Source of the DNA: Clostridia bacterium
GTDB taxonomy: Bacteria > Bacillota > Clostridia > UBA1381
Direction: 5' to 3'
DNA: 63,713 bases
Assembly: GCA_017415105.1 (NCBI GenBank)
Contig: JAFQJD010000027.1
Span: 1 to 63,713 of the forward strand
The notes beneath the pieces are model-generated. The model was not told where the DNA came from. It saw nothing but the letters and a program-made list of their open reading frames with translations, and made no database searches. How positions within the stretch are numbered: the stretch's first letter is position 1; each line of letters opens with the position of its first letter. The translations under genes were made by a program, and so were the position numbers. Shown piece after piece: positions 2,870 to 59,350 of this stretch.

Positions 2870-2882
2870 AATGATAACAATA

Positions 2883-35487: not shown

Positions 35488-37283
35488 TATAAGCCTCCCA
35501 TCAAATCAATCGGCACAAGCTCCTCTTCCGGTATTGGGTTCTGCTGCATCATTTCAGAATGATTTAGTTCCGGCATACCGCCGCCGTCCAAAGGTACAGG
35601 TACAAGTTCTTCCTCAGGCATTGCTCCGCCGCCAACCTCAACGGGAACAAGCTCCTCTTCCGCCGCCATAGGTGTACCGGGTGTAGGAGTTGGTGCCGTC
35701 TGTGCGTTATTCTGTTTAAACAGCTCCTGCAAATCAGAAAGTATTTTATCTTTACCGTCAATATTCATATGCTTAAGAACTATCTGCGCAACCTGATTCA
35801 TCTGCGGATTAAACAGTCCCTGCTGCCACAAAGCAAGAAGTGTGCTGTTCTGTGCTTCTCTTGTGAACGGATTCTCTTTCTGTGCAACAACATCTATATC
35901 AAACAACAGCGGTTTCCATTCTAATTCGCCCTGAGCACCAAGCCCGCTTTTCATAAGCAGGTCGTTACTGAATCTGATAAACGTCTTTTTTCCGTATTCG
36001 TCAGTGCTTCGTATTACACGCTCATCATTATAGAACTGCCGTATAAGCTCAATCGCCATAACAATAATACAACGGTATGCCTCATACGAATCGTCCATCA
36101 TAGACCGTGCACGTTTCTCACCAGACTGTTGCAAAAGGTTTATTGCAGTACCGCTCACCACACCGCCCGATGCGTCACCCTGCTGGAAGTCACGGTTTGC
36201 CACAAGCTCCTTGAGCTCGTCCTTTTTGCTTTCACGGTATGTTATATAGTTAGCGTTAACCGCTGTACCGCTGATGGGAAGAATTGCACCGACATCACCC
36301 TCATAATGAACAATACCATGTGCCATATCAAGAAACTCTTTTTCATCAATACCGCCGTTTTTTTTGCTGAAATATCTGACATTCGATGTTTGCATCAGGT
36401 TCTTGGTTATGGCATTATCCATTTTATCAATCTGAATCTGCGTAGTCTTTCCTACATCAAGCATTCCAAAACCGAACGGCGAATGTTCACAAGGATAAAG
36501 TACATCAAATACCACAGGATAAAGACCGTGGTCGTACAACCCGTTCTCATATCCCATACTGTCCTCTGTTGCATATATGACAGTATCATTGCAGAGCTTC
36601 ATCATGTGCAACTTACCGTCAGGCTTTTTATAATAGCAGTCAAGAACAATGCTACGGTCCTTAAGGTCACAGCTCTCAGTTATTGTTTCTATCTTTGCAT
36701 CACCTGTAAACAATCCTGAAAATTCAGGATACGCACGTTTTAAGATATCGTTATCAACCGCCTGTGATATGAAAAGGAAATTACTGTCCTGTATATCACG
36801 AAGATGCATATCCACAAACACATCAAATATATCAATACTCTTAATATCAATATCTCCGCTGATGTCGTTATAGAATACGCCGTAAATAGCTGTGCCGTAT
36901 TTGAGCTTATTCCTTGTATTGTTTTTATAAATCTTTTTAAAACCTATATGGTCAAGCTCACACTCAATAAGCTTTGAAAGCGTTTCTGCGGTCGCTGTGC
37001 CGTCAGGGTCACGTTCAATAATATTAGGTGACGGATAGTTCTCTGATGAGGTTGCACAGGCATTCTCGATTGCAGAGAACAACAACGGCGTTGAGCAGTC
37101 CATTTCTTTTTTTAAATTCTCTGTATTCCGCTCATAAAATTCACGGTAGAATTTATCATTGTCACGGACACGTGTTATAAAGCTTGCCTTATCACTCTCG
37201 TACTTTCGAAATGCCGACAGTGCTTCACTCTTGAACGCATCAGTTATTGCACTCTCGTGCACATATGTAATAGTATTCTCCAT
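35487..37283 (-). CDS. Portal protein
   Basis: 598 residues. It forms the dodecameric ring through which DNA enters and leaves. N-terminal DKFYREFYERNTENLKKEMD, the charged core and the QIQIDKMDNAITKN helix match podovirus portals. The C-terminal 60 residues carry three copies of an EEELVPV motif separated by glycine- and proline-rich linkers, possibly the internal barrel or a tail exposed to the hub. Adjacent to tail hub and capsid genes. Confidence 0.88.
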   Translation of the reverse strand: MENTITYVHESAITDAFKSEALSAFRKYESDKASFITRVRDNDKFYREFYERNTENLKKEMDCSTPLLFSAIENACATSSENYPSPNIIERDPDGTATAETLSKLIECELDHIGFKKIYKNNTRNKLKYGTAIYGVFYNDISGDIDIKSIDIFDVFVDMHLRDIQDSNFLFISQAVDNDILKRAYPEFSGLFTGDAKIETITESCDLKDRSIVLDCYYKKPDGKLHMMKLCNDTVIYATEDSMGYENGLYDHGLYPVVFDVLYPCEHSPFGFGMLDVGKTTQIQIDKMDNAITKNLMQTSNVRYFSKKNGGIDEKEFLDMAHGIVHYEGDVGAILPISGTAVNANYITYRESKKDELKELVANRDFQQGDASGGVVSGTAINLLQQSGEKRARSMMDDSYEAYRCIIVMAIELIRQFYNDERVIRSTDEYGKKTFIRFSNDLLMKSGLGAQGELEWKPLLFDIDVVAQKENPFTREAQNSTLLALWQQGLFNPQMNQVAQIVLKHMNIDGKDKILSDLQELFKQNNAQTAPTPTPGTPMAAEEELVPVEVGGGAMPEEELVPVPLDGGGMPELNHSEMMQQNPIPEEELVPIDLMGGL

Positions 37284-37707: not shown

Positions 37708-38898
37708 TTATATATCCTCTTTAAGTGACTCAATTCTTACAAGCTTGAGCTGTTCAAGTATCATTGAGAAATGATAACCCTTCCAGCCATATGTGCCACG
37801 CTGGTTAAGCGGGTCTGCAGTACCTGCAGAGCCAAGCTCCTTGTTAATCATTTCAACAGTCTTGTCACCTGATGAACCGAACGCATCCTTACCAAGAATG
37901 ATAGTTGAATAAACAGGCTCACCATTGACACCGCCGTCACCCGGATATATCTTCATATCACGTTCAACAAGCTTGCCTGTAATTTCCTCATTAAGTGTTA
38001 CGCTCGCTTCACCGTTCATACCTGCTGTAGCTGAAGCTATGGTGAACTTGTTGTTGTCAATCCATACTTCCTTGCCGGCAAGTGATGCAACATCACCCGC
38101 CTCAAGAGTTTCTGCAATCTTAATTGTTTTTGCTTCTGCATCAACACTTAAAATTGAAAGCTCGTCATACTTATCTGCAAAAGGTTCACCACGGAACACC
38201 CAAGCATCCGGGTCCTCAATAAATCTTACACCAAACAGTCTGCCGACCTCACCGTCATAAAGCTCTTTAGTGTCGGCATATGTATGAGGCTGACGCCACT
38301 CGGGGTCATTCCATATGTTGTTTACACAATCAGGGTGAATGAATGCGATAAAGTCCTTGCCGTCAGCAGGCTTTACCTTGTTACGCTTAAGGCTTGTTGC
38401 AGCATTACGCACATCCTTAACAGTAAGTCCTTTCGTAAGTGCATCACGGCTTTCAGCCCCGCCTGCATAGTACACGTTAGTACCAGATGCAAGCTCCATT
38501 GCATCAATATGCTCAAATGTCTCAAGCTGGTTCTCGCCAAGCAGATCTGTATAGTTCAGAACCTCCGGAGAGGGCTTGTTCGCAAAGAAATCAAGCTGGT
38601 CAGTGTAGCCTACATAGTTACCGAACTGTCTCGGTTCTGCCTTTATACGTGTAATGTGCACAGCAGAACCTGTCGGTGTAACACCCTCTGTAAGCGGTGT
38701 TGTAGCTTTGGGAAGCGGTGACATCTTATCAAACGCTATGGTCTTTGTCTGACCCTGCGGAATATCAACCTGCTGTGCAAACTGTGTATACTTACGGTTT
38801 GTTTTGTTTCTTTCAAGTACATATCTGTTAAGAACAGATTCCATCATCGGCGACATACCCGTTGATGTGGTTTTGTTTAAATTCAACTTATCTGCCAT
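37708..38898 (-). CDS. Major capsid protein, N4-gp56 family
   Basis: 396 residues. LTEGVTPTGSAVHITRIKAE and FGNYVGYTDQLDFFA are characteristic of the N4-gp56 capsid family (HK97 fold). A beta-rich insertion at about residues 255-325 (KEVWIDNNKFTIASATAG) looks like an accessory surface domain. It is preceded by a scaffold-like gene and followed by a gap with hairpins, as expected for the most highly expressed structural gene. Confidence 0.9.
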   Translation of the reverse strand: MADKLNLNKTTSTGMSPMMESVLNRYVLERNKTNRKYTQFAQQVDIPQGQTKTIAFDKMSPLPKATTPLTEGVTPTGSAVHITRIKAEPRQFGNYVGYTDQLDFFANKPSPEVLNYTDLLGENQLETFEHIDAMELASGTNVYYAGGAESRDALTKGLTVKDVRNAATSLKRNKVKPADGKDFIAFIHPDCVNNIWNDPEWRQPHTYADTKELYDGEVGRLFGVRFIEDPDAWVFRGEPFADKYDELSILSVDAEAKTIKIAETLEAGDVASLAGKEVWIDNNKFTIASATAGMNGEASVTLNEEITGKLVERDMKIYPGDGGVNGEPVYSTIILGKDAFGSSGDKTVEMINKELGSAGTADPLNQRGTYGWKGYHFSMILEQLKLVRIESLKEDI

Positions 38899-38904: not shown

Positions 38905-39864
38905 TTATCTCCTTCCATTTCGGCATTCTTCAATATACTTTTTAAATTCTGCAGAGGGCAAATTTGCAGGGTTAGAAGCTTGACGGCTTCCCGTTCCGCC
39001 CCCGGGGCTTGCACCGTTCTGCAGGATTGGTTTTCTTGCCGGAGCTTTCGGCGGTGCAGGCTTATTCGTTGCCGCATAAGCCTCAAACACCGTCTTACCA
39101 TCTCCAAGCATTTTCGCAAATACAGGATTCTTTACGGCTTCATTTAAATTAAAGTCAGGATTTATATACTTAATCTGCTCGGCATCACGTTGCCATCCGT
39201 TTATAATCTTCTCCTGTTCTCTTGCCGCCTCGGTTTCTCTCTGCATCCGCTCTCTGTAAAGCTGTGCGTCCCTTGCATCATTCTGTCTCTGTCTGTATTC
39301 TTCGACAGGTATCTCGGCACGCTCTGCCGCCTGTTCCTCAAGGTCTGCAGTCAGCTCCGATAAAGAGTCATGAGAATTGGGATAGTATTCCTTTGCCATA
39401 TGTTCAAGCTTTGAATATTTTGCAGCCTGTTCATTATGCTTACGCATTCTCTGGCGAATGGATGAATTGATACGTTTTCCCACCTCTGCCTCATACTCTT
39501 CTTCGGTATTAAATGTTTTAAACGGTGCTGCAGGAGTTTCTTCCTGCACTACCGTTTCACTCTCTGCACCGGTCTGATTAGCGCTTTCTTCATCTGATGC
39601 AGAGTTGCTATCTGTTTCTTCCTCGGTTACTTCCGCCGCGTCCGGGGTGTAGTCTGATTCTGAAAGATAGCGGGCAAACTCATCACTTGACATATTATCT
39701 ATATCTTCAGGTGTGAGTATGCCTTCCTGAGGATGAACGACTTCCTCAACTGAATTACTGTTCTCGGTCTGAGGGTGAACGACTTCCTCAACTGAATTAC
39801 TGTTCTCGGTCTGAGGGTGAACGACTTCCCCAGTAGTATTACTGTTCAATGTATCGTCAAGCAT
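38905..39864 (-). CDS. Capsid scaffolding protein
   Basis: About 319 residues, acidic N-terminal half, long charged coiled coil in the middle (RQRQNDARDAQLYRERMQRE) and a basic C-terminal helix (LPSAEFKKYIEECRNGRR) that would bind the capsid protein. ATG 39864 (MLDDTLNSNT) has GGAG eight bases upstream; a longer frame overlaps the previous gene. The N-terminus contains a 14-residue tandem repeat (EEVVHPQTENSNSV). No protease motif is visible. Confidence 0.8.
   Translation of the reverse strand: MLDDTLNSNTTGEVVHPQTENSNSVEEVVHPQTENSNSVEEVVHPQEGILTPEDIDNMSSDEFARYLSESDYTPDAAEVTEEETDSNSASDEESANQTGAESETVVQEETPAAPFKTFNTEEEYEAEVGKRINSSIRQRMRKHNEQAAKYSKLEHMAKEYYPNSHDSLSELTADLEEQAAERAEIPVEEYRQRQNDARDAQLYRERMQRETEAAREQEKIINGWQRDAEQIKYINPDFNLNEAVKNPVFAKMLGDGKTVFEAYAATNKPAPPKAPARKPILQNGASPGGGTGSRQASNPANLPSAEFKKYIEECRNGRR
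39735..39829. repeat. 42-bp tandem repeat inside the scaffold gene
   Basis: Two perfect 42-bp units (39735-39776 and 39777-39818) plus 11 bases of a third. They encode EEVVHPQTENSNSV repeated in frame. The near-perfect identity suggests recent expansion by slippage. Confidence 0.85.
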
Positions 39865-39880
39865 TTTCTGCTCTCCTTTC

Positions 39881-40681
39881 TTACCACCAATTTTTAAATT
39901 TACCTTCATCCTTTGCACTGTGTTCGTTTACCCAGTTCTTATATGCTGCCAAACGTGAGTTAAACGCCGTAATATGTTGGTTATATGCCGTCATATCACG
40001 CTGATACATGTTTATCTTTGCAAGTATATAATCAATATACATTCCGTCATACGGTGCATCACACACGGTTTTATCCGTCACATAACGGGTTATCGTGCCT
40101 GTTGTGTCCGTCTCTGCAATTTCAGTGAGAGAACCCGCACCGCATACGAGCTTGTACATATACTCACCGTCTGTATCAAACTCAATATCGAGCAAAGGAA
40201 CATTTGCTATTGTTACATCACCTGCTTTTATTACAAGTGTATCACCGGTTATAAACTCACAGCTTTTGATTTTTATAGTATCTGTTTCTGTATCAATCTG
40301 CATATCACCGTTGTATTTAACAAGCCTTATCGGCTCGTAAGGCACGAGATAGATTACGGTAATATACTCACCTTCGTTTACATCGTTTCCGTTGTTTATA
40401 ACCGCATTTACGTTTATTGCGTTACGCCCGAATGTACGTGCATCCTGTTTCTCAAGGACTTTGTTTTTGTATATGATTTTATCTATATACTCTATAGTTA
40501 CATTTTCGGGCAACAGTATTGTTCCGTCACGTGACACAGGCAACCGTCTTTCACGGTATATCCGCCTGTCCTCGATTGCAAGCATTGATGATACTTCATC
40601 ACACCACAAATATTTTTCTGTCAGGTCGTACTCATTCGGATAATAGCTATCCGCACGCTCTATAGCTTCATTTATGTACAT
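39881..40681 (-). CDS. Head-tail adaptor-like protein
   Basis: 266 residues starting MYINEAIERADSYYPNEYDL. The C-terminal helix MYQRDMTAYNQHITAFNSRL has the Tyr-Gln-Asp / Tyr-Asn spacing of podovirus adaptor (gp4/gp6-like) proteins. The middle is beta-rich and may be an inserted domain. It lies between the giant virion protein and the scaffold. Assignment is inferred from position and C-terminal pattern. Confidence 0.6.
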   Translation of the reverse strand: MYINEAIERADSYYPNEYDLTEKYLWCDEVSSMLAIEDRRIYRERRLPVSRDGTILLPENVTIEYIDKIIYKNKVLEKQDARTFGRNAINVNAVINNGNDVNEGEYITVIYLVPYEPIRLVKYNGDMQIDTETDTIKIKSCEFITGDTLVIKAGDVTIANVPLLDIEFDTDGEYMYKLVCGAGSLTEIAETDTTGTITRYVTDKTVCDAPYDGMYIDYILAKINMYQRDMTAYNQHITAFNSRLAAYKNWVNEHSAKDEGKFKNWW

Positions 40682-40700: not shown

Positions 40701-43700
40701 TTAAAATTTCTTACCAAATCTTGAACCGCTACCGCCGAATCTCGGTGTAAACCTGTAGGTATTCTTCTGAACAGGCTGTACGGACGGAGTAAATCGGTAA
40801 CTGCTACCACTGCTGTATCCGCCGCCGTAGCTGTTGTTATAACTCTTCTTTGAATAGTTACGGGAATAACCACTATTACCGCCACCGCTTCCTTTGTATT
40901 CTGAAAGATATTCCTCAACTGATTTACTTTCGGGTTTTGCATCTTCATCTTCCGCCGCCTCGGCTTTCTTTTCCTCTGCCTGCTCACGGTCATACTCATC
41001 AGCACGCCAGCCTGTATCTATAATATTACTGTTTCGTGGAACAAACGGATATGTAAGGTCAACGGGTTCTGTTTCAACCGATGTATCAACAAGAGAACCG
41101 ACATTATCAGGAAGTCTTACCTTGTCAATGTTATAGCCTATCTGGTCTATAACAATACCCTTTTCCTTATCAGTAAGATTTTTAAACTCACCTGTTATAG
41201 AAATCCACTTTTGTTCTATACCGGATGCTAAATCTTCGGAAGAGCGTACAAATGAGTTAATGAGTTGTTGCCTTTGCTCTGCTGTCAAACTACTGCTATA
41301 CTTTCTGCTACTCTTGTCATAGTAGGTTCCATTCCGTATCTTTGATATCATACTGTAATTGTATGCTATCTGCTCACCTTTTTCCTCTTCTGTGTACGGA
41401 ACACGATACCCGGCATCAATTACATCCTCAACCTTAACACCGTCAAGCTTGATATACTTTAACGCATTATCGGTCTTAACAACCTTTGATGCTTTAGCCT
41501 CATTTGATGCGACATACTTATCAATCCGCTTCTGCATCGAACTGTCAGACACACCCTGTTGATGTGACACCCATATTTCTTTTACAAGCTCTGCGGACTC
41601 CTTTGAGATTTCAGCTAATGCAGTTGTCTTTTGCGTGTCTGTCAGATGCTTATAATCATCACTTGTAACAAGCGTATGCATAGCCTTGTATGTCGTCATA
41701 CCCAAGAGGTTTGCATACTTCTCATAGTTCTCATCATCAAGCTTGAAAGAATAAGGCTGTCCGTTCTCAAATTCCCCTGTATTATTCCTGTACGGAGTTT
41801 TAGGAAGTATTTCTTTTAAAAGGTCTTTATTCTTTGCTGTAAGCTTATCAAGCTCATCTGTAACAACATTTGTTTCATACCTTGAAAATATCGCCGGTGA
41901 TAATGCGTTATTCATTATATCCACAAGCTTACCCTTGCCTAACGTATGAACCTCTGCCTCACCCCACAAATCAATCCTTAACGGTACATTCTCACGCAGT
42001 TCTGTAACAGGCATCTTTGAAAGGAACTTGCCGCCAATAACACCAAGCTGTGAATCAGCTCTGTACGGGTCACGGTTATGATCATCAAGTGCATTACCGA
42101 TTGCACGAACAGTTGAAGGCATAAACGACATCGCCGCATCTGCCGCAATTGCTGCCATTCCCTCTTGCGGTGTGTCTGCATACTTCCAGTCATTTATGTA
42201 CCGACGCATACCTGATACCGAAGACATCGCCATAAATTCAGCATATACGCTCTCGCCGGTTGAACTTAATATCTTATCAATAACCGGCTCATCCGTATCA
42301 TCCCCAAACGCTTCTGCTCCGAATGTCATAACACCTGCAGCAGGGCCAAGAAATCCTATCGGCATTATAAGGTCGTCTTTTTGCGGTTCCGTCACACCTC
42401 CGCCTTTAACCAGTCTTTCAAACGCTCCCCAGTTTATCGTCCACTGCGTGTTCATCTTTGCGCGCTCATAATCCTCTTCATCCTCTGCCGGCTCACCGCC
42501 TAAAAGAATTCCGCATTTAAACAGCTGTGCACCAAGCCACCAGCCTACAGGACTTATAAGAGCATTGGCAACACTTAAGAGTGCATCTCTCTTTGCATTC
42601 AATACGCTGTCAGGAAGCGGCAGTCTATCAACTTTGTTGTCTTTAGCCAAAAACTGCTTTGGAATATATTTTATAAAATCTTTATCCTTAGGATTGACAT
42701 TCTTTAATAACTGTGATATACTAATATTAGAACGAGCGAGAGCTTGGGTAACGCTATTATTAGTATTCTCCTGCTTTACGACCTCGTTCTTTTTTATGCC
42801 TTCAAGAGCTATAGCAACATACAACTTGTTAGTTCTATCATTAAATTCTTTTATCTCAAGCTTAACAGGTATAATGTTTTCTCCATCCTCAAAAGCACTG
42901 ACAAGCACATACATTTCTTTGAGAGAGGTATCTACTTTATATCCCTCACCGTTTCTGTTATGCACTTCGATTCCGATTGCCCTGTCAATAACGTCATCAA
43001 AGCAAGAGAACATTTTTGCGAACGCCCTATAATTCCCTTTTTGCTTCTCCTCACTTTCACGCATACCGTTTTTTGTGAATTCAAAGGAAATCTCAACATC
43101 CTCATTCGTATAATCTTTGTATACTCCAAATTCATGACCTATTTTTATAAATAGCTTCTTCCTGTCAGTCTTTGATAATTCAGAAGCATTGTCAATATTT
43201 GTTGACAGCTTTGTCTCTATGTCCCTTACTCTTTCCTCGCTCACTTTAGGGATATTCTTTAAAGTTTTGTTAGCAAGGATTTTATATCTCTCCTCGTCAC
43301 TCATCCCATCTCGAACGTGCTTCTTATCCACACTCTCAAGTGCCTTGACATCTTTATTGTTAGCATACACTTCCTTTGCAAGCTTTCCGCATTTTACTAA
43401 TGCCTTAACTGCTCCGACAGGCGTTACATCAATAACTCTGTCAAGAATATTACCGCTCACAAGCGGATACGGATTGATAAAATCACCTAATCCGAAATCG
43501 TGCGTAAGCTTTCTGCCCTTCAGCTCAATACTTGACCTGTTGGTGTCGGGCAACTCCTTACCTGTACCGATGATATTAAGAGCATCACGTATTCCCACCG
43601 AAACCTGTGCTATTATAGATTCATTCTGAAACGTACGGTAAAGCATCTGTTGCTGTGCATATTCATCATAGCGTTTCTTTATTTTTTCTGTTTCAGAATC

Positions 43701-46700
43701 CTTTAGCCTCTTTTTATCCTTTGGTTTTAAATCAGTTCTTTTATCAATTCTTCTTACAGCATCTTCAATATCGCGAGTCTCAAAATGCTCAAGCCCTGAT
43801 CTCACCTGCTCATATATCGCACCCTTAAAATATTCATCTGTTGCACCAAGAGCATAACCAAGAATCCTCTCACCCATTGCCAATGGTCCGCGCTTAAATG
43901 TACGCTTCTTTGACGGTGTACCAAGTCGCGAGTGGTCGTTATTAAGAATATCAACATTGAGGGCTGTCTCAAGATAAGCCTTCTCGCTTCTTGCCTTACC
44001 TTCTTTATGGCCTGCAAAGGGATTTTCAAAGCCTACTACTCTTTGCCCGCCTTTTCTTGTTGCAAGCCAATCTATTGCCGCCGCCGCATTATTCACAATA
44101 TTCATTCTTGCCGACTCCGCAATGTTGGAAAGCACGTTACGCTTTATAGTTGGTGGATGAATTAACTGCGACTGAAACATTATATTTTTAGCCTTTCGTC
44201 CGGTCGATACATTCTCTGTATCTGCTATCATACCAAACATCTGCGACGTGGCAATCTTTTTAAGCTGTTCGGTATCATTTCCGAAATGCTTCCGTAATAG
44301 TCTGCGAATATTGTTTGTTTCCTTATCACCAAACCCAAGTAACCATTTGAGCATTTTGTTGTCAGGCTCACCTTCTGTTTCGCTCATACTTTTCGTCCTC
44401 AGGTCAAGAGTTTCGCCTACAGGAGTAAATCCTGTTCTGTGCTTTTCACCAAGCTTGTCAAGTCCACGGTACATCATTGAACGCATCTTCTCCATACGTC
44501 TGCCTGTTGCGGTCTTACGGTATCTGCTCGTTATCATTATAATATCCATAAGCTCATCCGCATCCTCTATATCAGGCAACGCATTTGCAAGCTCACGCAT
44601 CAATGTAAATGTCTCACTGTCTGTATGCTTAATACCAAGCTTGTCATAAAGCATATCAACGTGTGATTTATAATGCTCTGCCGCTTCATGGCTTGCATCC
44701 TCACCAAGTGCTTTTTTTATTTCCCACTTACTTGCTTTCGGATTATCAGTTACAATATGCCGTCCCTTCGGATCAAGCTCTCCGTCATCATTAACACGGT
44801 AAGCTCGCACAATATAATCGTTTTGAACACTCCTCTGTCTTATGGCTATCTGGCGTATCTCACGGCGTAGTTTCTTTGCTTCTCGCGAGCACTTTCCTTC
44901 ATTCACCAGCCATTTTTGATACTCTCCTTCTTTCCGAAGCAAGAACGATTCTGATTGTGCCATATAATCTCTCAATGTACGTATGAACGCTCTGTGCTTT
45001 TCAGGGCTTACATCTACTGCTGTCAGATACATTTCTATATCATCTTCACTCATTCCGATTTCACGCATCGTATCACGAGCACCATCTTCTAACAGCTTCT
45101 GTCTCCTTCTGTTTTCAACACGCCAGCCGGCACCGGACATAAACGCAAGAAATTCCTTATCAAGCTTATTCTTTCTATGCAGTTCTTCGTACTCTGCAAT
45201 TTTCCGTTTTGCTTCCTCTTCACCCTTTGCCGCCGCCTCAAGGTCAAGCTGTAAGCGTGTCTTATTATCACTGTCCCTTTTATACTCTGCATCGGTTTCA
45301 TACAAAGCCTTATCAGCCGATTTTCTTTCTTCTGCATCCTTGGTCTGTCTCGCCTCGATTTGCTTTTCTATTTCAGCCCTTTGCGGATGCCGTTCAAGTT
45401 CAAACTGTATACGGTTATTTTCGGTCTTGTTGAGAAATGCAATATTGCCCGCAGGAGTAAGCCTGTACATCAGACTGAACGCCTGAGACAGCTTTCCGGC
45501 TTCTGTCGCTTTTTGTGCTGCAAGTATCAAAACATCCGCCTCAAGCTGTGGTTCACCCAAAGCACCGAATTCACCTACAAGAGCCGCCGCTATTCCCATA
45601 TCATTTTCATTCCATTTTTGTTTTGACGAAAGATATGTGAACGATTCCATTGTACCGTTCATAGCAACATATCGCATACCATAATCGGCTGTATCCTTAT
45701 TATGGGATATTCTGTAGGTCATTTCTCCCATTCGTTCTTTTACTATACTGTCAAACTCTTCCTTTGACCCGACGTTTATTTTATGCAGTTTCTTTGCAGG
45801 ATTACGAAGTGCATAATCATTACCCGGATTACCGTGTGGAAAATATACACCTGTCAGATTAGCTTCACGAACATAAAGCACCATTAATTCATCATGTGCA
45901 GCCTGCCATGCTTCGCTGGTATCTCTTCCGGCTTCAATCTCCGCCTGCATTATTCCACGCAGTTCAAGCTTTCGCTTTCCGATTTTTGACATTGCTATTT
46001 CACGGAGTTCACATATAATAGTGTTTGCAATCTCCGCTTTATCCGTTGGCGATACCTTTAACCTTGTCAGCTCTTCACCAATCACTTCATCGAGCTTGCC
46101 GTTAAAGTCTGTTACGTTGTAATCTTCATCAAGAACAAAATCAAGCATCTGTCGTACAGAACCACCAAGCTTTTTTACACTACCTTCTGTAATTCCCAAG
46201 CCTATACCTCGGAACAGTCCCTCTATATCCTTTCCATACTTTTGGGTATCTGCTTTCTTAACTTCACTGTCTGTTACATTCTTTGCCGTTTGCTCTAAAT
46301 GATAATTCTCAATTATGTCATCCGTGAGCTTATTAACCGCCGCGTTATATTCTGATTCACTTTCAAATTTAAGATGGTTTCCATCCTTGGTTTTTGATTC
46401 ATTAAGAATCGTTTCCGCCGCAGGTCTTAAAGCCTCTCGTATTGCAAAATCATCAGAACCATTCTTCAGCAACCGGTAACCCGAACGTATAGCTCTTTCT
46501 ATATGCAGTGTAAGCATCAAATCAGTATTTGCATAATTCTTTGTTGTCAGCTCTGCCACATAACGCGGTATATCAACGCTTGTTTCTATTATATCTTTTT
46601 CGCTGATACCAAGCCTTCCTTCATATGCTTTAATGGTACGTGCTTGTTTATAGAGATTTGTAAAGTGCTCAACAAAATCAGTTGCAATCATATGGTCAGT

Positions 46701-49700
46701 CTCGCCTTTTTTCTTGCGTACTGCTTTTGCTATTTCCTCACCGCCAAGATATAGTACTTTTCTTCCGTCTGCTATCTCTCCGCTTTCAAACAGTCGCCAC
46801 GATTGGCGTATAAAGTCAGGTAACATTCCGCTGCTCAATACATCAAACGCACTGCCGTAGCCACGTTTACGGTTATATGCATGAAGGTCATCAATCACAT
46901 TACGGCCAAAAACATTCATATCCTGATTGGTTTTCAATCTGAAATGTATATCTGCATCGCTATATGTATCATAGGTATTAGTATCATAATTTTTTATCTT
47001 GACACCGTTTACTAAATCTGATATACTAATATCAGAAGGTACACTCAACCATTGGGAGCCAACTGCATTATTATGCTGTGCTGCCGATAGAGTGTGCCTT
47101 TGTTTTATTGGCAACACTTCAACCCTTAACACATAAAGAGTGTTGGAGTTTGTTTTCTCTCTTGCTGTTATTATAGCTCTATATTCTGCATTATCCATAA
47201 AAAGAGGAGCTACAAAGTGATGGTATTCCTTATATGACGGATTTTGTATTTTATTTTTTTGAGGATTTTTCGAATCTATATATACTGCATTTTCAAACAG
47301 TTCTGGCAACTTTACCATTGCATTCAAGTTTTGAATATATTTATCACTAAACTGATTGAATTTATTATTGGTAGGGTGAATTGCTTTTCGTATAGTATCT
47401 GCATTAACATCCGCACTATACCCTGTAGCTTTATTATGATATGTACCACGTTTTAGATTTTTAACGTTTGTCTTAAGCTGTCCGAGTGCTGTATAATCGT
47501 TCTTTATAACACTAATATAATTTTTTACTGTAGTATATGGAATACGATTATTTATAGTAATATTCTTATTTTTTAAAGAGAATACAACATCACCATCTGT
47601 CTTACCTTTAAACTCCGCACCACGCAATCCCATCAGAGCATTCTCCAGTGTTTTCTCCATCTGAAGAAGCTCACTGTATTCTATCTCAAAACCGGTAGCC
47701 TTATCCTTGAACACCTTACCGTCCTTTGCGTACATCTTTATACGTAAATCACGGATAGCATTATACATCCTGTCATGGAGTGTAGGATTACCCTCAACAC
47801 GTCTTATAAGTCTCTCGTAATCCTCTGCAGTCTTTGGCATTGCATATCGCATAAACTCTGTTGCTACTTCGCTGTCAAGAGTTTCTTCACTTACCGTTCT
47901 TTTTGCATCCTTATACTCTCCTCTTATCCTGTTACGCATAGCAGAATACTGTGCATTCTCTCTTATCCTTTGTGCGTATATACTATATACATCAATTGCT
48001 CCATCCTGCGTTGCATGCACTCCTTCATGGTCAAAGGTTGAATTATAATCATCCTGCAGATTAGTAGAAAGCTTGATTTCGCCTCTTGAATAACTTCCCT
48101 CAAGATCATCGGCAAGCTTACCGTCGTAACTCGTTTTTACACCTGTAAGCCTGCGTGCAGCATCAGACTTCATTGCGAACTTATATTCTTCTGCACGATT
48201 AAGTATATCCTGAGCACCTATTTCGGAGTTCGTAAGTTTCTTGCCGGCTTTAACTTTTTTATCAAGGAGCTTTGCATTCCGTGCCGCCACCGAGTTTTTA
48301 TCATATACAGAGCCTTGACGTATTACCGCATTCTCAACTCCTCCATCAAGTTCAGTACGCAATGCCAACGCTTGCCTCTCTGTCATACCCTTAACAATAT
48401 CTCTTGGAATAGCACTATAATTATTCCGTTTCAGTTCTTTACCACGACGTGTAAAATCTACAGCCGTTGAGATCGTATTAGGTACAGATGCCGTACCACC
48501 AAATATACCGCCCATAACTGCAGAATTAACAACAGGCGTTACATAGGCATCTAAAATTGCTTTTTTATTTGCCTCATCCGCAGTTAACCCATCCTCTGTA
48601 TACTGTTTATATATCGTTGCATATCTGCCCTTGTCATTAAGCAGTGTTGCATCAGCAATATTATCAACAACAGCACGTGTTACCTGTGCACCCATACCTG
48701 ACAGAATAGAGCCGGCAGTGTTGCCTATAATTGTCTTTAAAGTACCGCCTCTCATGCCTTTTGTAAGAGCCTTGCCGATTTTTTCGCCGCCTGATTTTGT
48801 AAACTTTAAATCAACAGCACTCGTTCCGCCGGTAAGCATCGCTGATATATATGCCTCTGTACTCGACAAATCAACACCGTATTGTGCAAGCTCTGTATAT
48901 TTTCTTGCAATGCCTGCACCGCTACCCCATACCTTTTCGCCGCCGGGTAACATACCTTCGCCAATTTCTTCAACAATCTCTATGCCTGCCTCATGCAGTT
49001 TTTTTAAAGCAGGGTTATCTGTGCTGTCTGTTATACCCTGCTCCGCTATACCTAATGCATCTGTCTTAAACGCCGCTTCCTCATCAATAATGTTAACTGC
49101 ATTACGCCCTGCAACCTTGTTTATGGTCTGCTCTGCTCCTGCCATTAATCCCATTATGCCCGAAGCTACTGTCAGTGTCGGTATTGCTATATATCCAATA
49201 GCCGGATTTTTCTTGACTGCTTCGTAAAAACCTTTGTTCGCACTCGCACTTCTTTTTTCCTTCTCGTATTTGTCGTAAGCATCTGTATTTAGATAATATA
49301 AATCTGCTAATATGGCATCATACTTTCCGCGAATATACATGTAATTGTTCAGCTCTTGTTCGCTCATAAACTGTACAGGTGCAAGCCCGTATTCATTAAC
49401 CTCATCTATTCTATGAGCATCATGCTTAGAATTCGCTTCATAATCTTGCATACCCTTAACAACATACGTTTCATCCTCGGTCAGTTCTCCTGTAACATTC
49501 TTTCTGATTTTAACTTCTTTCAATCCACTGTAAAGCTCGTTTAAATCTCTTGTTACACCTTCCTCGTAACCACGTTCTTCAATATCATAAAAGCGTTTTT
49601 TATAGTTTTGCTGATAATACAAACTGTCAGGATTTTTCTTTGCATTCTCTATAGCCTTTTTATCTCGTTCTATATCCGACTTATCAAGCGAATTAAGACG

Positions 49701-50060
49701 TGACACAACGCTTATACTGTCTACGCCTTTACCTGCGTTTTTCACCGTACGAGGCGTAAATCTGCTCTCAAAGCGATTATTTGTGTTTTGCCTATTACTT
49801 CCCTTGTTCTCTCTTGTTGTCGTTTCTAAAAGCGTTCTCGGCTTGAATGGTGCAGGTGTTGTGCTTTTGGTAGTGGTCTTTTTCTCTGTAGTTTTTTTCG
49901 GTGTAATCTTACTGAAGTCAGATGCAGTTGAAAGCCCGTCGTATTTCGACGTGCTTTCTTTCTTTTCCTGCTTCTTCTCTTTTTCTTTTACAGTACCGTT
50001 TATGGTATCTTCAAGAAGTGTTTTTTTCTTATACGGTCCGCCACTGTTCTTCACCATCAT
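40701..50060 (-). CDS. Giant polyvalent-type virion protein (3119 residues)
   Basis: The longest gene in the window. Approximate landmarks: low-complexity S/T/K/P-rich N-terminus containing SRFTPRTV; hydrophobic segment near 285-305; a metallopeptidase-like FDHEGVHATQ (HExxH-type, H678 region); a mixed alpha/beta module at 840-1020 followed by DIHFRLK; a long coiled coil at 1550-1665; a LIHPPTIKRNVLSNIAESA block near 1970 resembling large-polyvalent-protein regions; a second alpha/beta module near 2310-2430; a hydrophobic stretch near 2495-2525; and a Gly/Ser/Tyr-rich tail with two RFTP motifs. This fits polyvalent proteins injected with phage DNA. Its start overlaps the small terminase stop. 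Confidence 0.85.
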   Translation of the reverse strand: MMVKNSGGPYKKKTLLEDTINGTVKEKEKKQEKKESTSKYDGLSTASDFSKITPKKTTEKKTTTKSTTPAPFKPRTLLETTTRENKGSNRQNTNNRFESRFTPRTVKNAGKGVDSISVVSRLNSLDKSDIERDKKAIENAKKNPDSLYYQQNYKKRFYDIEERGYEEGVTRDLNELYSGLKEVKIRKNVTGELTEDETYVVKGMQDYEANSKHDAHRIDEVNEYGLAPVQFMSEQELNNYMYIRGKYDAILADLYYLNTDAYDKYEKEKRSASANKGFYEAVKKNPAIGYIAIPTLTVASGIMGLMAGAEQTINKVAGRNAVNIIDEEAAFKTDALGIAEQGITDSTDNPALKKLHEAGIEIVEEIGEGMLPGGEKVWGSGAGIARKYTELAQYGVDLSSTEAYISAMLTGGTSAVDLKFTKSGGEKIGKALTKGMRGGTLKTIIGNTAGSILSGMGAQVTRAVVDNIADATLLNDKGRYATIYKQYTEDGLTADEANKKAILDAYVTPVVNSAVMGGIFGGTASVPNTISTAVDFTRRGKELKRNNYSAIPRDIVKGMTERQALALRTELDGGVENAVIRQGSVYDKNSVAARNAKLLDKKVKAGKKLTNSEIGAQDILNRAEEYKFAMKSDAARRLTGVKTSYDGKLADDLEGSYSRGEIKLSTNLQDDYNSTFDHEGVHATQDGAIDVYSIYAQRIRENAQYSAMRNRIRGEYKDAKRTVSEETLDSEVATEFMRYAMPKTAEDYERLIRRVEGNPTLHDRMYNAIRDLRIKMYAKDGKVFKDKATGFEIEYSELLQMEKTLENALMGLRGAEFKGKTDGDVVFSLKNKNITINNRIPYTTVKNYISVIKNDYTALGQLKTNVKNLKRGTYHNKATGYSADVNADTIRKAIHPTNNKFNQFSDKYIQNLNAMVKLPELFENAVYIDSKNPQKNKIQNPSYKEYHHFVAPLFMDNAEYRAIITAREKTNSNTLYVLRVEVLPIKQRHTLSAAQHNNAVGSQWLSVPSDISISDLVNGVKIKNYDTNTYDTYSDADIHFRLKTNQDMNVFGRNVIDDLHAYNRKRGYGSAFDVLSSGMLPDFIRQSWRLFESGEIADGRKVLYLGGEEIAKAVRKKKGETDHMIATDFVEHFTNLYKQARTIKAYEGRLGISEKDIIETSVDIPRYVAELTTKNYANTDLMLTLHIERAIRSGYRLLKNGSDDFAIREALRPAAETILNESKTKDGNHLKFESESEYNAAVNKLTDDIIENYHLEQTAKNVTDSEVKKADTQKYGKDIEGLFRGIGLGITEGSVKKLGGSVRQMLDFVLDEDYNVTDFNGKLDEVIGEELTRLKVSPTDKAEIANTIICELREIAMSKIGKRKLELRGIMQAEIEAGRDTSEAWQAAHDELMVLYVREANLTGVYFPHGNPGNDYALRNPAKKLHKINVGSKEEFDSIVKERMGEMTYRISHNKDTADYGMRYVAMNGTMESFTYLSSKQKWNENDMGIAAALVGEFGALGEPQLEADVLILAAQKATEAGKLSQAFSLMYRLTPAGNIAFLNKTENNRIQFELERHPQRAEIEKQIEARQTKDAEERKSADKALYETDAEYKRDSDNKTRLQLDLEAAAKGEEEAKRKIAEYEELHRKNKLDKEFLAFMSGAGWRVENRRRQKLLEDGARDTMREIGMSEDDIEMYLTAVDVSPEKHRAFIRTLRDYMAQSESFLLRKEGEYQKWLVNEGKCSREAKKLRREIRQIAIRQRSVQNDYIVRAYRVNDDGELDPKGRHIVTDNPKASKWEIKKALGEDASHEAAEHYKSHVDMLYDKLGIKHTDSETFTLMRELANALPDIEDADELMDIIMITSRYRKTATGRRMEKMRSMMYRGLDKLGEKHRTGFTPVGETLDLRTKSMSETEGEPDNKMLKWLLGFGDKETNNIRRLLRKHFGNDTEQLKKIATSQMFGMIADTENVSTGRKAKNIMFQSQLIHPPTIKRNVLSNIAESARMNIVNNAAAAIDWLATRKGGQRVVGFENPFAGHKEGKARSEKAYLETALNVDILNNDHSRLGTPSKKRTFKRGPLAMGERILGYALGATDEYFKGAIYEQVRSGLEHFETRDIEDAVRRIDKRTDLKPKDKKRLKDSETEKIKKRYDEYAQQQMLYRTFQNESIIAQVSVGIRDALNIIGTGKELPDTNRSSIELKGRKLTHDFGLGDFINPYPLVSGNILDRVIDVTPVGAVKALVKCGKLAKEVYANNKDVKALESVDKKHVRDGMSDEERYKILANKTLKNIPKVSEERVRDIETKLSTNIDNASELSKTDRKKLFIKIGHEFGVYKDYTNEDVEISFEFTKNGMRESEEKQKGNYRAFAKMFSCFDDVIDRAIGIEVHNRNGEGYKVDTSLKEMYVLVSAFEDGENIIPVKLEIKEFNDRTNKLYVAIALEGIKKNEVVKQENTNNSVTQALARSNISISQLLKNVNPKDKDFIKYIPKQFLAKDNKVDRLPLPDSVLNAKRDALLSVANALISPVGWWLGAQLFKCGILLGGEPAEDEEDYERAKMNTQWTINWGAFERLVKGGGVTEPQKDDLIMPIGFLGPAAGVMTFGAEAFGDDTDEPVIDKILSSTGESVYAEFMAMSSVSGMRRYINDWKYADTPQEGMAAIAADAAMSFMPSTVRAIGNALDDHNRDPYRADSQLGVIGGKFLSKMPVTELRENVPLRIDLWGEAEVHTLGKGKLVDIMNNALSPAIFSRYETNVVTDELDKLTAKNKDLLKEILPKTPYRNNTGEFENGQPYSFKLDDENYEKYANLLGMTTYKAMHTLVTSDDYKHLTDTQKTTALAEISKESAELVKEIWVSHQQGVSDSSMQKRIDKYVASNEAKASKVVKTDNALKYIKLDGVKVEDVIDAGYRVPYTEEEKGEQIAYNYSMISKIRNGTYYDKSSRKYSSSLTAEQRQQLINSFVRSSEDLASGIEQKWISITGEFKNLTDKEKGIVIDQIGYNIDKVRLPDNVGSLVDTSVETEPVDLTYPFVPRNSNIIDTGWRADEYDREQAEEKKAEAAEDEDAKPESKSVEEYLSEYKGSGGGNSGYSRNYSKKSYNNSYGGGYSSGSSYRFTPSVQPVQKNTYRFTPRFGGSGSRFGKKF

Positions 50061-50455
50061 TCCACCTCATCTATAGTATCAGGGAGTATCACAACTCCGC
50101 CCGTTCTCTTATCGCCACTGTCATTCTCTGACTTCTTCGGTTTAACATATCCTGCACGGTCTAACACATCACTTGCAACATCCGCACGTGCTTTGTCGTT
50201 ATCTGATGCATCCATTATCTGTTCCTGTGTATCAAGAGCCTTTGATGCAAGCTGTGATATCCTTGCCTTCTGCACTCGCCTGAAGTCTGCCTCACGCTCC
50301 TCAAGCTCCTTCTTAAACAGCTCATCTTGCATCCAGTAAAAGATTGCTCTTCGTGACACTTTCACAGAATTAGCAATTTCATCAATCGTACCACGACCTG
50401 CGACTAAGTGCTCAATGACTTCTCTATGCCGTTTGTTTAGATTTTTTAGTGCCAC
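50057..50455 (-). CDS. Terminase small subunit
   Basis: About 132 residues. An N-terminal HTH (LNKRHREVIEHLVAGRGTID then EIANSVKVSRRAIFYWM) recognises the packaging site; a helical oligomerisation region follows (LASKALDTQEQIMDASDNDK). The best start is GTG at 50455 with GGAG ten bases upstream; the frame is open further but without a site. It is separated from the large subunit by about 17 kb. Confidence 0.8.
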   Translation of the reverse strand: MALKNLNKRHREVIEHLVAGRGTIDEIANSVKVSRRAIFYWMQDELFKKELEEREADFRRVQKARISQLASKALDTQEQIMDASDNDKARADVASDVLDRAGYVKPKKSENDSGDKRTGGVVILPDTIDEVE

Positions 50456-50523
50456 AAAATTGTTACTCCTTTCCTGAAAAAAAGTGCAAAATAGTGCAAT
50501 TTTCAAAATTATCATTCTTATTT

Positions 50524-50555
50524 CTACCTCACGCACGCACACGCACGTGAGGTAG
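50524..50555 (-). other. Hairpin with ACGC microsatellite in the late-operon leader
   Basis: CTACCTCACG (50524-50533) and CGTGAGGTAG (50546-50555) form a 10-bp stem around a loop made of CACGCA units. It sits about 70 bases before the small terminase start. No U-tract follows, so regulation or antitermination is more likely than termination. Confidence 0.55.
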
Positions 50556-51592: not shown

Positions 51593-51876
51593 TTTTCCAA
51601 AAACTCCAACGCACGCCGATGCAGGCGTCTGATTTGCCTCGGTGAGTAGTGCATATGCTCCGCCGTCTCCTCTGTTGTCATTCCGTTTATGTATCTGCAC
51701 ACCAAAACAAGGCGTAACCGATAATCGTCTACGCTAAAAATAAGGTCATCCGCCGCCTTGATTTTTTTATCAAGCCTTTTTATATACGGCGACGACCGCC
51801 CCGCTTTTCCGACACGCTCCGCCCTCTCAAGCTCGCATGCACGCCGACCTTTGAGTATTTCCTTTACGTTCTTCGT
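51571..51876 (-). CDS. ArpU/DUF1492-like late regulator with ACG start
   Basis: A frame closed by TAG at 51571-51573 encodes about 101 residues: KNVKEILKGRRACELERAER, YRLRLVLVCRYINGMTTEET, then the sigma-4-like HTH EHMHYSPRQIRRLHRRALEF. Such proteins activate phage late operons, and it is the last early gene before the late module. No ATG, GTG or TTG is available; the best start is ACG at 51874-51876, seven bases after AAGGGGTG. Either ACG is used or the ATG has been mutated. Confidence 0.7.
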   Translation of the reverse strand, partial: TKNVKEILKGRRACELERAERVGKAGRSSPYIKRLDKKIKAADDLIFSVDDYRLRLVLVCRYINGMTTEETAEHMHYSPRQIRRLHRRALEFLEKKKTAAE

Positions 51877-52627
51877 TTCTCATCACCCCTTCACGCCTTA
51901 TCATAATATATCTTCGATACGGATAGCCGTCATCAGTAAAGCCTGTCCATATACTGCCATTCTTTACATCATACATATATCCGTCAATCTTTCTTGATGA
52001 TACATCACCACGCCAATGGTCCGCTCTTACTCTCTTTATCTTCGGAGCTCTCGGCTTTTTAAGATTTCGTGACTTGCAAATCTTCTTTGCCTTTACTCCC
52101 TTGTGATGTTTTCTGTCTCTCTCTTCTTCCGGAAGCTGATCGTCAAGCTCGCCTTTTGTAAGATAGCTTGCAAGCTGTGACAATTCACCCGAATATGTCT
52201 TTGATATGTATACCGCACCATTCCACAGTTCTATTATTTTACTTACGTCAAACCATTCAGGTATAAGTATGTGATGATGCAGTCCGCCAAGACTTCCCTC
52301 TTCAGTCACACCTATGTAATACAGCTCTTTATATTTACGCTTCAGCTTCTTGAAAAGCTTCTTCAGATTATCGTGAGCCTCATCTATATCCAAAGGTCTC
52401 TCCCCAAGATGATATGATAAGCGTATCCAGTAATCACCCTTCTTAAAATTCTCTAATGCATACAACACTATATTCTGTGCTGACCTTCTTGCATTAACCG
52501 CCGCTTGCTGTTCTGTTGTCTTCTTTGTCTTCGGAGCTCTGACCTTTTCAGAGCTATTAAACTTAAACGTGTGATAATCTTCTACTATTGCTACATTACC
52601 ACCGAACGACATCTTCTCTAAATACAT
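51827..52627 (-). CDS. HUH-type rolling-circle Rep-like protein
   Basis: 266 residues. Motif 1-like YWIRLSYHLGERPLD near residues 85-100, the HUH metal site in GGLHHHILIP near 145, and a tyrosine motif near 170-190 (YSGELSQLASYLTKG) follow the order of rolling-circle replication initiators. It would nick an origin and form a 5'-phosphotyrosine link. The basic C-terminal part (KSRNLKKPRAPKIKRVRADH) may bind DNA. It overlaps the following regulator gene by 50 bases. No other replication enzyme is recognised in the prophage. Confidence 0.75.
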   Translation of the reverse strand: MYLEKMSFGGNVAIVEDYHTFKFNSSEKVRAPKTKKTTEQQAAVNARRSAQNIVLYALENFKKGDYWIRLSYHLGERPLDIDEAHDNLKKLFKKLKRKYKELYYIGVTEEGSLGGLHHHILIPEWFDVSKIIELWNGAVYISKTYSGELSQLASYLTKGELDDQLPEEERDRKHHKGVKAKKICKSRNLKKPRAPKIKRVRADHWRGDVSSRKIDGYMYDVKNGSIWTGFTDDGYPYRRYIMIRREGVMRNEERKGNTQRSACMRA

Positions 52628-53464: not shown

Positions 53465-54453
53465 CACAGACCGAACTCCCCTCTGTACTTATCAAACATA
53501 GCACTCACCGCCTGCTTGAACCTGCCCTGCATTGCCGCATCATTGATACCCTTGAACGCAGTTATCATTTTATTCATAGTGTCCTGTGCCGTATTGAACT
53601 GTGCCTTAAACTCTGTCACCGCAGGGTCAGCCATAAGCACCTGCTTCTTTAGGTTCTCTATCTCAAGCTTTGCCTTGTCCGCCTCGGCTTCCGCAGTACG
53701 GCGTGCTTCCTCGGCTTTTGAAAGCTTGTCCTTTGTTTTCTTGATAGCTTCCTCAATCTCTTTAGCCTTGCTTTCCGCCGCCGCACTTTCAGCCTCTTTC
53801 TTCAGCTCAAGAAGCTTGTCCTTCGGTATCTCCGGATTCTTTGCAAGGTCCTTGTATTTCTTGACATCTGCCTTTGCCTTATCAAGCTTCGTGTTAAGCT
53901 CTGATATACTTGTTTCCAAACCCTTAACACTAAGCTCCGCTTTCTCTCTTTCCTTATCACTCTCCTCGGCACGTGCAAGTGCTGCGTTCATCCTCTCTTC
54001 CATATCCGCCGCCTGCTCTGCCGCCGCAACCGCCGCATCACGTTCTTTTATAAGCTTGTCAAGCTCACGTGTTGAAAGCTCGGAAACATTGTTCTCTTTC
54101 ACAAACTCCTCAACCTCATCATCCGGCACAGCAAGTAGCTTTAAAGCCTGTGAATAGCTCAAATTCGTAAACGTTTCCGAATTTAATTCCGCCCCGAAAA
54201 GGCTTACCTGCGTGCTTCCGAACTTCTTAAATATCTGCATATGCTTGTTCGCAGTAGACTGCGAGAACTGAACTTCATTCTTAAGCCACTCGCCCCACTC
54301 ACCGTGCGGAAGTATCTCCTTTGCCTCAACTAATCGTCTGCCGATTTCTACTGCATATATAAGCATCATTCTCTGTGCCTGTGCACAGATGTCTTTTATC
54401 TCTGTCGTTACTACAGCTATATCACGCTGCTGTTTTACTACTCCTTTTTCCAT
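53464..54453 (-). CDS. DUF3102 domain protein with long coiled coil
   Basis: 329 residues. The N-terminal 100 (IYAVEIGRRLVEAKEILPHG, GEWGEWLKNEVQFSQSTANK) match the DUF3102 family, common in phages and plasmids and sometimes linked with DNA partition or replication. Residues 125-290 are a continuous coiled coil rich in E, K and A. Start ATG lies inside the end of the PcfJ-like gene with AAGGAG upstream. Confidence 0.82.
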   Translation of the reverse strand: MEKGVVKQQRDIAVVTTEIKDICAQAQRMMLIYAVEIGRRLVEAKEILPHGEWGEWLKNEVQFSQSTANKHMQIFKKFGSTQVSLFGAELNSETFTNLSYSQALKLLAVPDDEVEEFVKENNVSELSTRELDKLIKERDAAVAAAEQAADMEERMNAALARAEESDKEREKAELSVKGLETSISELNTKLDKAKADVKKYKDLAKNPEIPKDKLLELKKEAESAAAESKAKEIEEAIKKTKDKLSKAEEARRTAEAEADKAKLEIENLKKQVLMADPAVTEFKAQFNTAQDTMNKMITAFKGINDAAMQGRFKQAVSAMFDKYRGEFGL

Positions 54454-56146
54454 TCTTCTTTTTCTCCTTCATATTTATTTCTTTGATATGTGCAAGCCAT
54501 TTCTCCACAAATGCCTTTTCTTCTTCCGGCGGATCATAGTTTTTATACCGCCTGTTCTGACGTACACGCATATTCTTTTCATCAAACTCAAGCGTACAAT
54601 ACGAACACTCCGGACTTTCACTGTATCTTACAAAGAATATAGCGGTCTCTCCTCTGGCGTGAGCTCCTGCATATCTTGCAACACAATGATTAAGATTTTT
54701 GCCCTCTGCCACCAATTCACTTTGACATCTCGCCGGCCGGATAATATATCCGTCAGCTTCAAATATATACTTCGATAATGTTTTCATTCGCTTTTCAAAC
54801 TGTTTTAACATTTCCGGAGAATTCTTATATTCCATTCGCTCATTGGATACATCATGTGCACATATAAGGTTCTGCGGGTATCTGATACGCTCATCAGATA
54901 AATTCTCACCGAGCTTTTTCATCATATCCCAATAATCCGTTATATCACTGATATACGGTTGTCGTTGCTGTGGATACTTCTTTAACTGCTTGTTTATGTA
55001 GCGGAGTGTACGCATTACATTCACGTTCTTAAACTTAAACAACCTACTAACGTCATAATATCCGCACAGATTACACAAGTCCACATCTTCAGGCTTGATG
55101 CCGTATTCCTTTGCCTTTTTATAAAATTCAAGGTCGTCAGGCTTCCACCTAAACTTACGTGCAAGTCTGTATTCTTCTTTTGTAAGTCCTAACATTTCAT
55201 TAGGACGCTTTGCTTTCCAGTTAATGCCTTTAATATCATTTACAGATTTCATATTTGAATAGTACGGACTGTCCAGCTTGTCAAGCTTTGCATTTACAAA
55301 GTGTGACATTCCCTGCATCACAAGGTTTTCTACGTTCTTATGCTTGACCCACAGGTTCATATATGACACAGGATATACAATATCCTTGCAATCGTTTATG
55401 TACTTATCAAGCTTGCAGTTCTCGGCAGACGTTCCGATAAGAACATCTTCATCAAACGGATATATATCCGACTTTCCGATTTTACCGAACGAGTCATTAA
55501 ACCGTTCACGCTGATGCCAGTCACTAAACCAGGATATACTGCTCATAAACCTCTGATACCCTGCAAGCTTAACAACCTTTCTGTCCTCTGCCACATACGC
55601 CTCCCACGGGTTACAAAAGACACGTGTCGTACCGTCAGAGTTCAGATGCCGGCATACATACCACGTAACTATTGCAAGCCTGTCACCGACTTCAAGGCTC
55701 CCTTGTGTAAAGGGAGCTGTCAGCGTAGCTGACTGAGGGATTGAATTCCCCACACGGCAAACTGTCATCGGCCAGTGCTCACTCACAGTTTTTGAATATC
55801 GCATTTGCCCGCAATGTATCGCCTCTGCCGATGCTCCGCAATGCGGGCATATGGTAGTCGTGCCGGATATAACATTCTCAACATAGTCACCGACTATATT
55901 TTCAAACCCGAACGGTGCAGGTGCATACACATTCGAACACCCGTCATACTCCGCACGTGGTAGATAATACACTTCTCCGCACGCACTGCATCTGCACTCA
56001 ACCATTTTCTCTTTTCTTTCGGTAAGCGGATCATATACCCATGCGTGCTTATATACTATGTACTCTTTATCAAAGCACCCACGCTCACGCATCCAGGGTA
56101 TAAGCCCCTCTGGCGGTTCCGTTGGAATTAAACTCTCGTAATTCAA
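54422..56146 (-). CDS. PcfJ-like protein, with in-frame palindromic insert
   Basis: 574 residues. N-terminal cysteine pairs (ECRCSACGEVYYLPR, TICPHCGASAEAIHCGQM) look like zinc fingers. The C-terminal domain (LVAEGKNLNHCVARYAGAHA then CSYCTLEFD) is the PcfJ-like signature found on conjugative plasmids and phages; function unproven. Start is TTG (56146) with GGTGG upstream. Residues about 135-152 (SIPQSATLTAPFTQGSLE) are encoded by a mobile palindromic repeat, with the frame intact. Confidence 0.83.
   Translation of the reverse strand: MNYESLIPTEPPEGLIPWMRERGCFDKEYIVYKHAWVYDPLTERKEKMVECRCSACGEVYYLPRAEYDGCSNVYAPAPFGFENIVGDYVENVISGTTTICPHCGASAEAIHCGQMRYSKTVSEHWPMTVCRVGNSIPQSATLTAPFTQGSLEVGDRLAIVTWYVCRHLNSDGTTRVFCNPWEAYVAEDRKVVKLAGYQRFMSSISWFSDWHQRERFNDSFGKIGKSDIYPFDEDVLIGTSAENCKLDKYINDCKDIVYPVSYMNLWVKHKNVENLVMQGMSHFVNAKLDKLDSPYYSNMKSVNDIKGINWKAKRPNEMLGLTKEEYRLARKFRWKPDDLEFYKKAKEYGIKPEDVDLCNLCGYYDVSRLFKFKNVNVMRTLRYINKQLKKYPQQRQPYISDITDYWDMMKKLGENLSDERIRYPQNLICAHDVSNERMEYKNSPEMLKQFEKRMKTLSKYIFEADGYIIRPARCQSELVAEGKNLNHCVARYAGAHARGETAIFFVRYSESPECSYCTLEFDEKNMRVRQNRRYKNYDPPEEEKAFVEKWLAHIKEINMKEKKKNGKRSSKTAA
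55694..55744. repeat. Gut-clostridial palindromic repeat inserted in frame in the PcfJ-like gene
   Basis: Two adjacent hairpins: GCTCCCTT-GTGTA-AAGGGAGC (55697-55717) and GTCAGC-GTA-GCTGAC (55719-55733), followed by TGAGGGATTG. I know near-identical repeats from intergenic DNA of many gut Clostridia. Here the length keeps the reading frame and adds about 17 residues. Confidence 0.75.
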
Positions 56147-59296: not shown

Positions 59297-59350
59297 TTGA
59301 CTTATTTTTCTTACTGTGATATAATCACCGCAGAAAGCGAGGTGATTATA
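59297..59350 (+). promoter_or_regulatory. Promoter-operator 1, palindrome over -10 and SD
   Basis: TTGACT (59297-59302), 17 bases, TATAAT (59320-59325). TATAATCACC (59320-59329) and GGTGATTATA (59341-59350) form a perfect 10-bp inverted repeat that contains both the -10 box and the ribosome binding site. An inner palindrome GTGAT-ATA-ATCAC (59316-59328) is also present. Confidence 0.8.

Follow-up and report, generated by a model that had tools for sequence, protein, structure and literature searches.

A giant, probably polyvalent protein with a zincin-type peptidase domain and exchangeable modules in a P22-like prophage of a Clostridia bacterium

The virion RNA polymerase of phage N4 is a very large protein. 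In the sections of the survey by Iyer et al. (2017, PMC5512222) that bear on such proteins, this polymerase is described as packaged whole and DdrB of phage P1 as processed before packaging; the polyvalent protein class is described in the same work, as is the domain LPD3, named in 2017 and left in those sections with no function given. Among the papers searched, that one alone contains both LPD3 and "polyvalent". The protein considered here, of 3119 residues, is encoded at 40701–50060 on the minus strand of the window, a stretch of 63,713 nucleotides from a Clostridia bacterium (contig JAFQJD010000027.1, assembly GCA_017415105.1). The most probable reading is that a temperate P22-like short-tailed phage produces it as a polyvalent protein along with its head proteins, incorporates it into virions and delivers it together with the phage DNA. 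Its chassis would carry interchangeable ribonuclease (RNase)-type cargo, and its own peptidase would process the giant. The identification as a polyvalent protein had been put forward in a preliminary description of the window, and is favored by the virion-gene setting, the peptidase-type domain and the exchangeable effector-like modules presented below.

The giant is read from a single uninterrupted ATG frame of 9.4 kb placed, as first described, right after the small terminase gene (TerS, 50057–50542, minus strand; phrog_2538, E 1e-19), whose stop codon is overlapped by its ATG by 4 nt; 19 bases separate its own stop from the start of the next minus-strand gene. The frame joins several disparate domains, namely a zincin-type peptidase, an LPD3 domain and a second, LPD3-like module, and comparison with related frames shows it to be a recurring chassis that includes the peptidase, with exchangeable cargo modules. 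The recurring chassis segments, all on the minus strand, comprise an N-terminal segment (residues 412–551, 48408–48827) common to G035, G036, G038, G005 and G006, segment mid1 (residues 1041–1405, 45846–46940) common to G035 and G038, segment mid2 (residues 1445–1580, 45321–45728) present in 12 of 22 frames including that of the window, and, from pairwise alignments, segment C1 (residues ~1929–2232, 43365–44276) and the C-terminal chassis C2 (residues 2471–3024, 40989–42650), the latter also seen with profiles. In window residues, the blocks shared with G035 span 229–1690, 1799–2227 and 2471–3024, and those shared with G038 span 228–880, 1245–1595, 1798–2221 and 2594–2999. The whole-genome search matched the giant in 12 of 70 host-family genomes, the window's own included, many of the matches being partial. 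The C-terminal chassis profile, built with rows from four of the genomes it matched (the window's among them), found 12 of the 391 genomes of the class, with a weak match in G152.

The zincin-type metallopeptidase domain (residues 651–776, 47733–48110, minus strand) was recognized by profile, alignment and predicted fold. Its HEGVH sequence (residues 678–682, 48015–48029, minus strand), noted at the outset as an HExxH-type motif, is kept in 11 of the 12 alignment rows covering the column, the exception being G038 with HDxxH, and the downstream glutamate, Glu731 in the window protein, is kept in 13/13 rows. Because the peptidase belongs to the chassis and not to the cargo, it is taken to act on the giant itself, and most likely processes it to free the cargo modules.

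The cargo differs in kind from one relative to another. In a Pfam survey of 12 relatives, a set without G287, PBECR5 was found in G069 and G420, ART-PolyVal in G420, MuF_C in G420 and G127, LPD23 with the putative metallopeptidase DUF6782 in G420 and in the second frame of G036, ddrB-ParB in G154 and an M23 peptidase in G006. LPD3 exceeded the cut-off in G035 (just), in G420 (three stretches) and in a second giant of the window's own genome, and fell under it in G154, G127 and G006; G038, G053, G386 and G243 gave no Pfam domain, save a sub-cut-off MCM6_C in G038. That second giant (L089, 1270–13569, contig G000:C22) has 4100 codons and carries LPD38, an SNF2 helicase and an Eco57I methylase together with LPD3. 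Among the eight frames having both the peptidase and mid2, a recognizable module lies between them in six, the other two being G038 and G154. Over the whole class, Pfam detected LPD3 in 24/391 genomes, 18 of them over the cut-off, the window's genome included.

Two alpha/beta modules had been seen in the window protein and both were recovered. The first, LPD3-1 (PF18798, residues 867–976, 47133–47462, minus strand), is the best stretch of a whole-protein LPD3 score of 65.2 bits against a Pfam gathering cut-off of 27. The second is a divergent LPD3-like module inserted at residues 2247–2469 (42654–43322, minus strand), inside the C-terminal chassis; the same place holds ~21–23 residues in G035 and G038 and none in G069. 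Relatives of this module follow the peptidase in G053 and G386, and others occur in G018, G094 and G015. The suggestion of several undescribed effector domains was thus half right, since the recognizable ones are an LPD3 and an LPD3-like module and LPD3 was already named. The modules tend to be GC-poor with respect to their own gene (15/18, modules chosen by hand), and in the gene of the giant, stretches of equal length have a GC content as low as that of the two LPD3 modules in 3.4% and 7.2% of cases, respectively. A human faecal phage record, MT838554.1 (L240), contains at 3–5078 a frame of 1692 codons, truncated by the beginning of the record, with the peptidase profile and three LPD3 matches; the window LPD3-1 stretch matches it at two places (54% over 228 and 58% over 76), so that the module, in part at least, occurs more than once in this frame.

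The solved fold nearest to the LPD3-1 model is CdiA-CT Kp342 (6cp9), a BECR tRNase toxin, with 7% identity in the structural alignment. The two LPD3-type modules are most likely BECR-type RNases or RNA-binding relatives. At the last-strand position His is the commonest residue in the family (14/25), and LPD3-1 has Leu978, with which it may be inactive. Profile comparison of LPD3 with PBECR5 and MuF-C, with two rows only on one side, showed no relation. A rather unlikely alternative is that LPD3 is a non-RNase domain of helix plus curved sheet (NTF2/VirB8-like) that binds partners for assembly or binds host proteins, which would alter one step only and is compatible with a polyvalent protein.

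Each LPD3-type module of the giant is accompanied by a short linker motif, ISISDLV after LPD3-1 (47010–47030, minus strand) and ISISQLL near the end of module 2 (42705–42725, minus strand). Of 25 LPD3 copies, 20 are followed within 75 residues by a motif of this kind (ISISDL-type or I/V-S/P-Q), compared with 1460 of 20,000 random stretches, an enrichment to be read as a lead only, since the motif was defined on the same data; the ISISDL type alone, within 90 residues, accompanies 5/27 copies and 221/20,000 random stretches. At the DNA level, a repeat is found at 42694–42732, 46999–47037 and 59297–59335, the first two copies being 82% alike and encoding ISIS(Q/D)L after each module. Read antisense, this repeat resembles an extended −10 promoter (TTGACA-17-TATACT, 11/12), and ranks in the top three of the 31 promoter-like sites of the region, where chance would give 23.9; in the third copy, which lies outside the giant, inspection by eye gives TTGACT-17-TATAAT.

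Both ends of the giant are low-complexity or repetitive tails. In the N-terminal tail (49686–50060, minus strand) a 12-residue motif is repeated (residues 8–19 and 70–81), and such a repeat beats all 60 shuffles in five of nine frames (window, G035, G038, G036 and G287) and does not beat them all in G006, the second giant of the window's genome, G154 and G386; the repeated sequence differs from frame to frame. The tetrapeptide RFTP occurs, as reported, at both termini, at residue 100 and, in the C-terminal tail (40743–40796, minus strand), at residues 3089 and 3103, against 0.009 copies expected from composition, with no further copy in any reading frame of the window; the C-terminal pair was equalled by 2/60 shuffles of that tail. 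The earlier idea that the protein is cut at RFTP-flanked sites was not supported, as the copies are confined to the two tails, with none between domains and none in 11 relatives, several of which are truncated where their contigs end. These tail motifs may serve in docking or packaging. Hydrophobic segments had also been listed: only two stretches pass 1.4 on the Kyte-Doolittle scale, and their number is not above chance because shuffled copies average 2.6. A putative coiled coil was read by eye at residues ~1565–1640.

The genes around the giant are, by family, those of a P22-like short-tailed (podophage-type) temperate phage, so that the giant is encoded among the virion genes of a portal-terminase phage. 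On the minus strand beyond its stop lie a gene for a 266-residue protein (39881–40681, phrog_12105), a family that also adjoins head genes of relatives, one for a 337-residue protein upstream of the capsid gene (38905–39918, phrog_13908; scaffold by position only), and those for the major capsid protein (37708–38898), the P22-like portal (35487–37283), a separate protein matching an internal virion protein family (33490–35487, phrog_511) and the terminase large subunit (TerL, 31785–33188), the capsid, portal and TerL being assigned from family matches; an amidase gene is also present. Three tandem 42-nt repeats occupy 39727–39852, near the start of the 337-residue pre-capsid gene. Next to an integrase gene (62170–63330, plus strand), a tRNA-Met gene carries at its 3' end a 17-nt sequence (63382–63398) that recurs exactly at 25254–25270; 200 shuffles gave matches of 11 at most, and the two copies are the probable att repeats marking the prophage ends. 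The giant thus takes 9360 of the 38,145 bases between them (24.5% of a prophage of ~38.1 kb), the quarter first estimated. The early part of the prophage encodes a G2P-type replication protein and a PcfJ-like protein (51827–52627 and 54422–56146). Both types of protein are encoded more commonly by plasmids and conjugative elements.

The giant seems to be dispensed with in relatives that have the same virus shell. In 29 IMG/VR loci with TerL relatives (33–60% identity), no frame of at least 120 residues matched any of eight giant profiles, within flanks of up to 10 kb on contigs many of which are short (6/29 reach at least 9.6 kb on both sides). Frames with giant profiles were seen in the fetched flanks of at least 4 among 64 named TerL-related loci; this is a minimum, since the flanks do not reach the giants of G035 and G036. 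The portal is present in 16/16 genomes of the host genus, and the portal tree unites 11 copies, each from a different genome, in a single clade (100/100) that is separate from the prophages bearing the giant (window, G035, G038 and G036). The groupings (G000, G038, G039), (G040, G033) and (G041, G045), the last two joined, recur in the alanyl-tRNA synthetase tree; agreement is partial because the place of G035 does not recur. Ten loci of this clade (L140, contig G000:C37, 167–12296; also L141–L148 and L150), fetched as longer stretches of which several are cut at contig ends, gave no giant-profile match. They hold a compact cluster of TerL, scaffold-position protein, capsid, portal and phrog_511-type protein, with an amidase too in G000, the window's genome, where it is flanked by a nucleotidyltransferase gene and a GTPase gene. 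TerL is divergent from the other head genes in 8/10 loci, and dN/dS lies at ~0.035–0.17 over seven gene pairs, with synonymous change near saturation in some. The cluster is apparently inherited vertically and is a candidate gene transfer agent (GTA)-like element. A tentative reading, held less firmly than the polyvalent assignment, is that one head lineage exists in two forms in one host genus, temperate phages with an injected chassis-plus-cargo weapon and a vertically inherited GTA-like cluster that lacks this weapon. On that view the giant would serve infection warfare alone, unneeded to build, fill or empty the head and never had, or lost, by the domesticated form, with slots that swap RNase-type modules marked by short end motifs and released by the chassis peptidase.

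Peptide-pattern searches found no relative of the whole giant in viral_contigs or genome_contigs, nor, in viral_contigs, of the portal or of slices with either LPD3 module. One record of the annotated phage collection, MT838554, matched the N-terminal half; in that collection the C-terminal part and module 2 had no match, and the portal matched nine unannotated faecal records at 30–34% identity. No PHROG (E up to 10) or NCBIfam model matched the protein, and profile searches against PDB sequences gave nothing credible. A tape-measure reading was not retained: a tape measure appeared in two BFVD rows (ranks 15 and 17; E 0.007 and 0.013; prob 0.38 and 0.35) and was named by none of the family libraries.

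The favored mechanism can be outlined as follows. The giant is most simply a late gene, because its start overlaps the TerS stop and the head genes then follow on one strand, and it would be made late together with the head proteins. It would be taken into the virion through its tails or its chassis, which consists of the tails with their repeated docking-type motifs, long helical segments and the peptidase domain. We infer that packaging is followed by injection with the phage DNA, probably into the next host, and by proteolysis in which the built-in peptidase releases the cargo; the RNase-type modules could then hit host RNA, their presumed target, in the first minutes of infection, serving takeover or blunting defence. 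The separate phrog_511 gene and the related head genes without the giant weigh against this scheme where ejection is meant as a general role. The same two observations also speak against an improbable second explanation, in which the giant is mainly a structural ejection or assembly protein (a helical conduit or core) whose LPD3 and peptidase domains are worn-down, inactive passengers. In favor of it, the model of 1200 C-terminal residues (1795–2994) predicts a largely helical structure that includes long helices, but its confidence is low (predicted local distance difference test, pLDDT, 56.6 on average) and its structural matches are not interpretable; Leu978 replaces the commonest His, and an inactive PBECR domain is described in Mu MuF (in the part of PMC5512222 concerned). 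However, the HExxH and glutamate are kept across distant members and the cargo changes in kind. That the giant acts from the prophage in the lysogen, in superinfection exclusion or defence, is very unlikely given its late-gene arrangement, even if Iyer et al. suggest that polyvalent proteins, once captured, might be turned on incoming elements as well (PMC5512222).

For the role of polyvalent proteins there is a natural comparison here, as head genes of one kinship occur both beside the giant (phage) and in its absence (GTA-like cluster), even in one genome. Two questions are also opened to direct test: whether cargo is freed by the peptidase that polyvalent proteins carry, and whether LPD3 is an RNase. 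With the phage polyvalent proteins, as presented in the relevant sections of PMC5512222, the giant shares a multi-domain frame of great size, a zincin-type peptidase, LPD3 and a portal/terminase neighborhood; it differs in its Clostridia-phage chassis family, in cargo placed after the peptidase and in a second module lodged within the C-terminal chassis. N4 offers a further podophage protein of great size in its virion RNA polymerase. This polymerase has a zincin-type domain and is packaged in the virion (same sections), but no RNA polymerase domain was found in the giant by Pfam (E up to 10). P1 DdrB is a head protein of several domains, one of which, of zincin type, is proposed to process it (same sections); unlike DdrB, the giant shows no ddrB-ParB domain by Pfam, although its relative G154 has one. 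The giant may be likened to the P22/T7 ejection proteins (gp16-like) as podophage proteins leaving the head with the DNA, from which it differs in matching no known internal virion protein family (PHROG, E up to 10) in a prophage with its own phrog_511 protein. The BECR tRNase toxins are delivered by contact-dependent inhibition (CDI), whereas LPD3-1 would be delivered by a phage. FpGTA I of Faecalibacterium makes particles (PMC12946183), and the compact cluster resembles it in content. Compared with these systems, what is new is a chassis family with a second module set within it, a lead from structure on LPD3 and the contrast with a cluster that lacks the giant.
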